Positions 23,040 through 28,323 of a DNA stretch of 39,401 nt are shown here, in pieces; the stretch's first letter is position 1, and each line of letters opens with the position of its first letter. The notes beneath the pieces are model-generated. The model made no database searches, was not told the DNA's origin, and saw only the letters and a list, made by a program, of their open reading frames with translations. A program made the translations under genes and the position numbers. The stretch lies in assembly GCA_945905835.1 (NCBI GenBank), contig CAMDQJ010000027.1:1-39401 (forward strand), in the 5' to 3' direction. This DNA is from Asaia bogorensis. Its GTDB lineage: Bacteria > Pseudomonadota > Alphaproteobacteria > Reyranellales > Reyranellaceae.

Positions 23040-23060
23040 CTGCAGTGGGCAAACCTAGCA

Positions 23061-23091
23061 TTGCCGAAGCACCGCCCACACATCATATAAT
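23061..23091 (+). promoter_or_regulatory. Candidate uvrB promoter (TTGCCG - 19 bp - TATAAT)
   Basis: A perfect -10 hexamer TATAAT is at 23086-23091 with a partial -35 TTGCCG (4 of 6 matches) at 23061-23066. The 19-bp spacer is longer than optimal. The expected transcription start is near 23098, essentially at the uvrB ATG (23099). No LexA-type operator was recognised in this short region. Confidence 0.5.
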
Positions 23092-23098
23092 CGAGGCC

Positions 23099-25288
<2,190 letters not shown>

Positions 25289-25298
25289 AAGCCACGGG

Positions 25299-26112
25299 TT
25301 ACTTCTTTCGCGCCTTGAACTCCTGCTCGATCTCGGCGAGTTCGTTCTTAGCGTTGTCGAAGCCGGGGCGTTCCCCTTCTTCAAGCGCCTCGGCGGTCTC
25401 CAGATGCTCCTTGGCTTCGGCGATCGCTTCCTCGCAGCGCGCAAGCTGGCCCTCGATGCCGCATGAGATACGGGCGATGGAAATCAGTACACGGCCAAGG
25501 TCGATGGCATCGTAGGGACTTACATCGTCGCCTGCCTGTTTGCGGAACGCCGCCAGCGCGCGTTCGTAGAGCGCCAGCGCTTCGAGCAGACTCCCCGGCG
25601 CGTCGCGCCGCTGCGTCATCTGCTCCAGGAGGTCGCCCAGCCGGCGCTGGTCGATGTCGGGAGTGTCCGTGCTCGCAATCAGCCGCTCCTACAAGGCGAC
25701 CGCATCGGCAAAGGCGCGGTCGGCCTTCGCCGCATCGTTGACGACATCGTACAGCTTGGCGAGCGCTTCCAGCGAACGTACATGCGCGCGCATGGCGCGG
25801 CCGTCCTTGTCCGGCCGCGTCAGGTTGCGCGCGCTGATCTCGCGCGCGCGTTCCCAGGCCTCGATCGCGCCAGCAATATCGTCGTTCTTTTCACGCACCT
25901 TGCCGACGTTGCTCCAGGCGCTCGTGAGCCAGGCCAGGTAAACGTCACCTTCCGGGAAGCGCGCGACAAAATCCTGCGCCAGGACGAGCGACTGGTCGGC
26001 ATATTTCTGCGCCTGCTCGATCTCGCCATGCTCGAGCAGGGTCGGAACGACCGACAGATAGAGGCGCGTTCGCGTCGGATCGACGCGCTTGTCGCCCTCG
26101 CGTTCGCCGACC
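25299..26112 (-). pseudogene. TPR-repeat protein remnant (5' truncated, internal amber stop)
   Basis: A single minus-strand frame encodes Ala/Glu-rich helical repeats of TPR type, for example EIEQAQKYADQSLVLAQDF, AIEAWERAREISARN and LLEALALYERALAAFRKQ. Two lesions are seen. First, an in-frame TAG at 25689-25691 interrupts AVAL-stop-ERLIAS; the same frame continues cleanly on both sides, and a Tyr there (ALYERL) would match the repeat pattern, so a Tyr-to-stop change is likely. Second, the coding character stops at about 26112, where a patatin fragment on the other strand begins. The 5' part of the gene, including any N-terminal domain, is missing. The downstream segment ends in a lysine-rich tail (EFKARKK). 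Its original function is unknown. Confidence 0.7.
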
Positions 26113-26787
26113 GCCTATCCCAACCGCAAGATCAAGCTGGTGTCGGCGGTGCTCGCCAGCACCGCGGCGCCGACCTATTTCCAGCCTGAATTCTTCGAGA
26201 TCGCCGAGGGCCTGCGCGGCGGCTTCGTCGATGGCGGCGCCAGTCCGCACAACAACCCGTCGCTGCTGTTGCTCCTGCTGTCGACGCTGCACGGCTACAA
26301 TTTCAACTGGAAGGTCGGCGACGACAACCTGCTGCTGATGTCGGTCGGCACCGGCGTGTTCCGCAAGCGTCAAACCGAAGCCGAGATGCGCCGCTTCCTG
26401 CCGGCCCAGCTCGCCGTCAACGCGCTGGTCTCGATGATCGACGATTCCAACCGCCAGACGCAGGCGCTGCTGCAGCTCATGGGCACCTCGCCGACCGCCC
26501 GCATCATCGATGCCGAGATGGGCGATCTCAGGGCCGACCAGATGAGCGACAAGAAGCTGCTGCACTACCTGCGCTACGACGCCCAGCTCGAGATCGACTG
26601 GCTGGCCAAGAACCTTGGCATCCAGATCTCGCCCGACGACATCAAGCGCGTGCAGGCGATGGACAATCCCTCGACCATGGACACGCTGATCAATATCGGC
26701 CGCACCATCGCCCAGCGCCACGTCGAGCCAAAACACTTCCCCGAGATCTTCACCAAGACGGTCTGGCGGCCGTCGAGCACGCCGTGA
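26113..26787 (+). pseudogene. Patatin-like phospholipase remnant (N-terminal half missing)
   Basis: Plus-strand frame encoding the C-terminal half of a patatin-family lipase: SAVLASTAAPTYFQPE, then FVDGGASPHNNPS containing the DGG motif with the catalytic Asp, then LLMSVGTG and a long helical C-terminus ending KTVWRPSSTP. The N-terminal half, with the oxyanion loop and the GxSxG nucleophile, is absent. The frame begins abruptly at about 26113 next to the TPR remnant on the opposite strand. Without the nucleophile it cannot be an active lipase. The frame is otherwise open for about 225 codons, so the loss appears recent. A short open extension upstream (from TTG 26089) encodes only sequence antisense to the TPR frame. 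Confidence 0.75.
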
Positions 26788-26797
26788 AGCGGACGTT

Positions 26798-27586
26798 CTA
26801 AGTCTCGCGGCCGAGCGCGCTTTCGTGCCAGCGCCGCAGCAGCAGGTGCGACAGCAGGCTGAGCACCAGGAAGATCGCGATGCCGGCGGCCGAGATCAGA
26901 ACCAGGGCCGCGAACATGCGCGGCACCTTGAGCTGGTAGCCGGCCTCGAGGATGCGGAAGGCCAGCCCCGAGGCGTTGCCACCGGAGCCCGCGACGAACT
27001 CCGCCACCACCGCGCCGATCAGGGCGAGGCCACCCGAAATGCGCAGGCCGGCAAGGAAATAGGGCAGCGCTGCCGGCAACCGCAGATGCACGAGTGTCTT
27101 CCAGCGCCCGGCACCATAGAGCTCGAACAGGCTGAGCAGGTTGTGGTCGACCGAGCTCAGGCCGAGGATCGTGTTGGACAGGATCGGGAAGAACGCCACC
27201 AGCCAGGCGCAGATCAGCAGCGAGAGATCGACATCGTTGGCCCAGGCGATGATCAGCGGCGCGATCGCCACGATCGGCGTCACCTGCAGGATGATGGCGT
27301 AGGGATAGAACGAGGCCTCGATCCATTTGGATTGGGCGAACAGGATCGCCAGCGCGCCGCCGACGACGACGGCCGCCAGCAGGGCCTCGGCGGTAACGGT
27401 GAGCGTGATCCACAGCGCTGGCGCCAGCGTCGGCCAGTCCTGGACCAGCGTATGGCCGATCAAGACCGGCCCGGGCAGGATATAGCTCGGCACACCGGCC
27501 CAGCGCACGACGCCCTCCCACAACGCCAGCATGACGATGCCGACCACGATCGGGCCGACGATCCGCGCGGTTGCCAGCCGGCTCAT
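26798..27586 (-). CDS. ABC transporter permease (NitT/TauT type)
   Basis: Inner-membrane permease of the nitrate/taurine/aromatic-type ABC importers (SsuC/TauC-like). The 262-residue product has about six transmembrane segments, and the EAA-type loop ELYGAGRWKTLVHLRLPAALPYFLAGLRIS contacts the ATPase. From the ATG at 27586 it overlaps the ATPase stop by 4 bp (ATGA). The frame extends far upstream on the same strand, but that part lies inside the ATPase gene. No substrate-binding protein gene is next to it. Its last codons are 10 bp from the patatin remnant. Confidence 0.93.
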   Translation of the reverse strand: MSRLATARIVGPIVVGIVMLALWEGVVRWAGVPSYILPGPVLIGHTLVQDWPTLAPALWITLTVTAEALLAAVVVGGALAILFAQSKWIEASFYPYAIILQVTPIVAIAPLIIAWANDVDLSLLICAWLVAFFPILSNTILGLSSVDHNLLSLFELYGAGRWKTLVHLRLPAALPYFLAGLRISGGLALIGAVVAEFVAGSGGNASGLAFRILEAGYQLKVPRMFAALVLISAAGIAIFLVLSLLSHLLLRRWHESALGRET

Positions 27587-28323
27587 GCCGCCATCGCCTG
27601 GCCGAGGCGGCCCGAGGCCACCCGGCAGATCGCGGCGTACTCGGGCGAGGTCCGGAACGAGTCGGGGCGCGGATAGGGCGCCTCCACCCTGATCTGCGAC
27701 AGGATCCGGCCGGGCCGCGCCGCCATGATGGCGATGCGCTGGGAGAGGAACACCGATTCGAACACCGAGTGCGTGACGAACACCGCGGTGAATTTCGTGC
27801 GCTGCCATAGCTCCAGAAGATCGGCGTTGAGGCGATGGCGCGTGATCTCGTCGAGGGCGGCGAACGGCTCGTCCATCAGCAGGAGCCGTGGCGCCGTCAC
27901 AAGGGCGCGCGCGATCGAGACGCGCATCTTCATGCCGCCCGACAGCTCGCGCGGATAGGCGCGCTCGAAACCGCCGAGACCGACCCGCTTGATCGCCTCG
28001 GCCGCCCGCGCCTCGCGCTCGCTCCCCGCCATGCCGCGCAGTTTGAGCGGCAGCACGACGTTGGCGAGCGTCGTCGCCCACGGCATCAGGGTCGGCTCCT
28101 GAAACACGAATCCAAGATCGCGCCGGCTGTCGCTCCAGGAGATCGTGCCGGCGGTCGGCGCCGTGAGGCCCGCAATCAGCCGCAGCAGCGTCGACTTTCC
28201 GCAGCCCGATGGGCCGAGAACGCTCAGGAACTCGCCCTCCTGGACGTCGAGCGACGCACCCTCGAGGGCGTGGACGCCGTTGGCGAAAACTTTGGAGACG
28301 CCGTGAACGCTGACGAGCGCCAT
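27583..28323 (-). CDS. ABC transporter ATP-binding protein (NitT/TauT type)
   Basis: Cytoplasmic ATPase of the importer whose permease follows. The 246-residue product has Walker A GPSGCGKST (37-45), the Q-loop in VFQEPTLMPWATTLANV, signature LSGGM (127-131), Walker B LLLMDEP (147-153) and the switch histidine in VFVTHSVFESVFLS. The PWAT segment after the Q-loop is typical of SsuB/TauB-like members. The ATG at 28323 shares one base with the dioxygenase stop (TGATG), so the two genes are translationally coupled, implying the transported compound relates to the dioxygenase substrate. Confidence 0.94.
   Translation of the reverse strand: MALVSVHGVSKVFANGVHALEGASLDVQEGEFLSVLGPSGCGKSTLLRLIAGLTAPTAGTISWSDSRRDLGFVFQEPTLMPWATTLANVVLPLKLRGMAGSEREARAAEAIKRVGLGGFERAYPRELSGGMKMRVSIARALVTAPRLLLMDEPFAALDEITRHRLNADLLELWQRTKFTAVFVTHSVFESVFLSQRIAIMAARPGRILSQIRVEAPYPRPDSFRTSPEYAAICRVASGRLGQAMAA

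Follow-up and report, generated by a model that had tools for sequence, protein, structure and literature searches.

A truncated CapV-like patatin gene and a broken TPR-like frame meeting at one junction between uvrB and ABC transporter genes

Described phospholipases and conflict systems closest to the locus

The closest described counterpart of the patatin remnant studied here is the CapV-type patatin phospholipase, an effector of CBASS, and the best matches of the remnant in PDB (8zr9), NCBIfam (NF041079) and PADLOC (PDLC00758) were all of this kind. A full-length relative of the remnant (L107, from genome G021) also matched the CBASS phospholipases of NCBIfam and PADLOC, and the DGG motif is kept in the remnant; unlike CapV, however, the remnant is without the half that carries the nucleophile. 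Both scores lay below the NF041079 cut-off of 200 bits, with 32.6 for the remnant and 117.4 for full-length L107. No CD-NTase was seen among those neighbours of the patatin loci that were scanned with general Pfam profiles.

The second point of comparison is provided by the predicted NTP-dependent conflict systems, among whose components STAND, TPR, SLOG and SLATT have been named (Kaur et al., 2020; PMC7159879). The word patatin is absent from the main text of that paper, and set against the systems as that text presents them, the window keeps just two broken parts. Nearer at hand are loci of the genus in which a patatin stands together with a SLOG-like and an nSTAND1 gene (L107, L148 and L113 are examples), the patatins being 51-57% identical to the remnant (43% in L115). 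These loci differ from the window in that they lie at another site, carry longer genes and have a convergent SLOG-like partner which is absent in the window. Among the literature matches listed, which comprised titles and the starts of abstracts and took in few subscription journals, none dealt with patatin, SLOG-like and nSTAND1 genes arranged in this way, an absence that says little.

Two gene remnants and the junction between them

The window, that is, the whole stretch of 39,401 nucleotides that was analysed, is contig C27 of the draft assembly G000 (185 contigs, 4.07 Mb, 96.5% complete). Its uvrB gene is 88-94% identical to those of relatives, the match spanning nearly the whole length. 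Two gene-like frames alone (Table 1) occupy the DNA that separates uvrB from the ABC transporter permease gene (25289-26797), and at the 3′ end of each the spacer to the intact neighbour (uvrB for the TPR frame, the permease gene for the patatin) was 10 bp.

Table 1. Positions of the features of the locus within the window
Feature	Position	Strand	Remark	Evidence
uvrB	23045..25288	+	intact left flank	Pfam
3′ remnant of a TPR-like repeat protein gene	25299..26108	-	269 codons, inner stop read as X	
In-frame TAG splitting the TPR frame	25689..25691	-	second lesion besides truncation	
Junction zone between the remnants	26100..26121	.		codon-signal phase switch, start of patatin alignment
C-terminal remnant of a CapV-like patatin phospholipase	26118..26787	+		Pfam, alignment, PDB/NCBIfam/PADLOC matches
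ABC transporter permease gene	26798..27586	-	intact right flank	Pfam BPD_transp_1
ABC transporter ATPase gene	27583-28323		next after permease gene	Pfam ABC_tran

The patatin remnant, for which the mechanical open reading frame was 26089-26787 (+) with 232 aa, corresponded to roughly the last 215 residues of a patatin that would be about 385 aa long. It covered positions 147-186 of the 191 of Pfam PF01734 with 25.5 bits, just below the cut-off of 27.7, and it matched residues 164-380 of the 386-aa L107 protein with 56% identity (E 1.2e-75). In an alignment with 13 relatives, of which L114 was partial, clear similarity set in at about codon 26122, or possibly slightly before it. In patatins, the GGGxRG motif forms the oxyanion loop, GxSxG carries the nucleophile and DGG or DGA holds the catalytic aspartate. 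It was clear from the same alignment that the remnant keeps DGG (as FVDGG) and that the GGGxRG loop and the GTSTG nucleophile motif are both absent and map to the lost N-terminal half, so that the loss of GxSxG and the retention of DGG, as reported in the sequence-only reading, were confirmed. As the nucleophile is absent, the remnant can hardly be a lipase. What is left of the gene is well preserved: its 222 codons are free of stops, GC3 is 0.92, and 34 of the 37 columns that were invariant in the other full-length aligned patatins are still kept. The intact relatives gave 37/37 to 37/48 in the same test and the partial L114 gave 36/37, and the column conservation of the remnant is thus within the range of intact relatives. 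Judged by the 34 columns kept, the truncation appears recent on the time scale over which the patatin family diverged.

On the minus strand, the TPR frame as listed consisted of two open pieces, 25898-25689 and 25619-25299. The frame itself is real, as the sequence-only reading had it; its splitting by the in-frame TAG was missing from that account. Pfam matches were weak, the 3′ piece giving DUF2524 (E 4.2e-4) somewhat ahead of TPR_12 (E 0.0014) and the 5′ piece giving TPR_2 (E 0.029), all below the cut-offs; consensus TPR proteins in PDB matched the remnant better, with a best E of 4e-22. Close kin were not found in the 74 other genomes of the family, of which four gave generic TPR matches, and in the class such generic matches came from 7 of 384 other genomes with at most six candidates scored per genome; the best generic match was a TIR-TPR protein in G079. 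The DNA of the remnant gave short matches of 24-43 bases only, in 12 of 40 other genomes. A search of plasmids gave no match; the 46 pattern matches in genome contigs and the 19 in viral contigs included none that could be confirmed. A TPR query spanning the junction matched nine other genomes through its residues 1-62, which proved to be the antisense of patatin and were dropped, and its residues 117-297 gave one further match, a TPR, in G009. The sequence-only reading had described both frames as lacking their 5′ ends. This holds for the patatin; since no full-length close relative of the TPR gene was found, we only infer that its 5′ end, too, was lost at the junction.

The TPR remnant was also considered as the tail of an nSTAND1-TPR protein, a candidate that was not upheld. 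A profile was built from the TPR regions of four nSTAND1-TPR proteins, and the remnant scored 19.2 bits against it (shuffled copies, at most 0.6). Of the other TPR sequences compared, five (L120, L127, L128, L130 and L131, the last being identical with L146) scored 67-131 bits, or 54-110 bits in their best 269-residue stretch, and three (L129, L132, L133) scored less than 10 bits; these sequences had mostly come from the remnant's own searches and are not an independent sample. By this profile the remnant is a TPR of a general type related to that of the nSTAND1-TPR proteins, without being specifically close to them. The nSTAND1-TPR protein of L107 gave no match in G000, in a search run without a known positive as control.

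In the codon-usage scan, the coding phase passed only once from the minus-strand TPR frame to the plus-strand patatin frame, at about 26100-26115, and the TPR-frame signal reached up to about 26109, in agreement with the junction at about 26112 of the sequence-only reading. An exact 12-base direct repeat (26104-26115 and 26488-26499) touches the junction with one of its copies. As a deletion signature it was set aside as too weak, since repeats of 12 bases or more occurred at 14 of 371 random points of the window.

The uvrB interval and patatin loci in relatives

In order to compare the site itself, the stretch downstream of uvrB was read in 20 relatives (L087-L106) out of the 60 in the uvrB search. 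The permease gene followed uvrB in 15 of the 20 loci, after a gap of 156 to 4766 bp. The remaining five stretches did not show it: in L088 a dioxygenase gene lies directly after uvrB, in L097 and L100 other genes and then a dioxygenase gene follow, L089 runs into the contig end, and L102 has neither the permease nor the dioxygenase gene in 6.7 kb. The interval is variable across the genus, with alpha/beta-hydrolase and MFS genes in several loci. No relative of the patatin or the TPR protein was found at the uvrB site in any of the 20 loci (tblastn, and blastp on ORFs of at least 100 aa), nor in the 1.5-kb flanks of 29 relatives, which include most of the 20. The sequence-only reading predicted that relatives would have a TPR and a patatin gene in divergent orientation at this place. 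Such a pair was thus seen in none of the 20, and neither was a relative with the same short genes, which would have spoken against a deletion.

Patatins related to the remnant do occur elsewhere. Matches were obtained in 14 of 61 genomes of the genus, its own included, eight of them at 51-57% identity, one at 43% and four at 32-38%; the order-wide search gave 15 of 76 genomes, again with its own, by adding G084 (57%). The closest patatins are those of G021 (L107) and G084 (L148), both 57%. Pattern scans of genome contigs and viral contigs gave no close kin of the patatin, a result that says little, as the genome search matched 14 of 75 other genomes of the order. Ten loci of the closer class were read (L107-L115 and L148, with L115 being the one of 43%), and in all of them the patatin sits at another genomic site than the uvrB interval.

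In seven of the ten loci (L107, L109-L114), a long SLOG-like gene is convergent with the patatin; L108 and L148 end at a contig edge on that side, and L115 shows no SLOG-like gene. The SLOG-like protein gave weak YAcAr and SLATT matches, all below the cut-offs. Its gene is present in all eight genomes with patatins of the 51-57% class, in G066 on another contig, and these eight are among the 12 genomes matched in a search for it. The others include G019 and G069, which have a close SLOG-like gene (at a contig end in G069) and no patatin match, and G000 and G001, which have distant ones. The single distant SLOG-like gene of G000 (L143:3456-4706, contig C11) has 34% identity, and no patatin match was found beside it. 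By Pfam, the SLOG-like gene adjoins mnmG in L142 (G019) and L144 (G066), unlike the uvrB site of the window; in L142, the remaining 1.7 kb of the contig after the SLOG-like gene holds an alpha/beta-hydrolase and no patatin.

By Pfam, seven of the ten loci (L107, L109-L113, L148) have an nSTAND1 gene close to the patatin, and none was seen on the stretches read of L108, L114 and L115; among the seven loci with convergent patatin and SLOG-like genes, all except L114 have the nSTAND1 gene close by. TPR repeats were called in five of the seven nSTAND1 proteins (L107, L110, L111, L113, L148) and not in that of L112. The nSTAND1 protein L109:8699-10999 has, by Pfam, a C-terminal FGE-sulfatase domain instead of TPR. 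The patatin and the nSTAND1-TPR gene are divergent in L107 and L148, which hold the two closest patatins, whereas in five of the seven loci having both, patatin and nSTAND1 genes point in one direction. The former divergent pair postulated in the sequence-only reading has a counterpart in G021 and G084, at a different locus; at the uvrB site none was found.

Among the distant patatins, those of L116, L117 and L119 adjoin TPR-S, TIR or nSTAND1 genes. That of G050 (L118:1781-2650) is without its N-terminal part, the match starting from residue 139, and on its sequence it would be the second N-terminal patatin truncation in the genus; by gene-cluster similarity only, it adjoins a TPR-S-like gene. 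The patatin of G009 (L114:5385-6553) lies in two frames, residues 1-115 and 99-386, and looks frameshifted.

It is conceivable, and at present a tentative proposal that we would rate as unlikely, that the intact relatives make up a conflict module composed of a CapV-like patatin, a SLOG-like membrane protein encoded convergently and with weak SLATT matches, and mostly an nSTAND1 NTPase, often with TPR, and that the window holds a relic of it minus the SLOG and STAND parts.

History of the locus

A single deletion through a divergent patatin/TPR pair is probably the best account of the locus. On this account, the locus would be the defunct remainder of a set of conflict-type (defence-like) genes. 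Its patatin and TPR genes would formerly have been arranged head to head, with uvrB on one side and the ABC transporter genes on the other, and one deletion would have removed the intergenic region that they shared, a 5′ part of the TPR gene and, from the patatin, about 163 initial codons, that of the catalytic serine among them. One deletion is the simplest history because the broken ends face one point, the lost half of the patatin was not found elsewhere and the closest relatives have patatin and TPR-carrying genes head to head. When full-length L107 patatin was searched against G000, the single match was the remnant, and the missing half was not found on other contigs, with five of eight candidates scored. 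The patatin truncation, the stop in the TPR frame and the single switch of coding phase are direct observations; that there was a single event, that the TPR gene was once longer, and that both genes were once whole and head to head at the uvrB site, we infer. The proposal of the sequence-only reading that one deletion explains both truncations is therefore kept as the simplest reading, a single event not being demonstrated. Several findings count against it: the pair stands at the uvrB site in 0 of 20 relatives' loci, the TPR remnant shows no specific kinship with the nSTAND1-TPR proteins (19 versus 67-131 bits), and, as regards divergent ancestry, the patatin and nSTAND1 genes share a strand in five of the seven loci having both. 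Because of the additional TAG in the TPR frame, the decay of one gene may not have coincided with that of the other. As the patatin has lost its nucleophile and the TPR frame contains a further stop, both products are probably non-functional.

The main alternative, which we regard as rather unlikely, is that two fragments with separate histories were joined after uvrB by insertion and recombination, no intact divergent pair having ever been there. The variability of the uvrB interval in the 15 loci with a measured gap, with hydrolase or MFS genes in several, would agree with such a history, as would the absence of both genes from all 20 uvrB loci, the further stop in the TPR frame and the rarity of even generic TPR matches in the family (4 of 74). 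However, at least two events would be needed, and they would have to leave the two broken ends in the same place by chance; the two closest patatins, moreover, do stand head to head with a TPR-carrying gene.

An assembly artefact, by which the central part of an intact divergent pair would have been lost through collapse or mis-joining, is improbable. The draft is in 185 contigs and the 12-base repeat touches the junction; yet repeats as long are found at 14 of the 371 random points, the missing half of the patatin did not turn up on another contig among the five of eight candidates scored, and the in-frame TAG points to true decay of the TPR side. The order of the flanks agrees with 15 of the 20 relatives' loci, which makes a gross mis-join unlikely; a collapse inside the interval may still have occurred. 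Least probable is that selection maintains the short patatin frame as a small functional protein (a regulatory or decoy C-terminal domain), for although its stop-free codons, GC3 and 34 kept columns would suit this, the same short gene stands at the uvrB site in none of the 20 relatives, its listed start (TTG, 26089) falls inside the TPR-like part, and its good preservation is equally explained by a recent truncation.

To return to the deletion, the scar it would have left is ordinary genome decay. Of the genomes in the genus comparison table with a completeness of 95% or more, G000 (4.07 Mb) is the smallest, which fits a lineage undergoing gene loss. The patatin remnant is the tail of a phospholipase like those in antiviral defence, and G000 retains only this broken patatin of the kind associated with SLOG-like and nSTAND1 genes. 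The use of the finding lies in the comparison: across the genus, patatins keep company with SLOG-like and nSTAND1 genes, pointing towards a defence-type module that can be tested.
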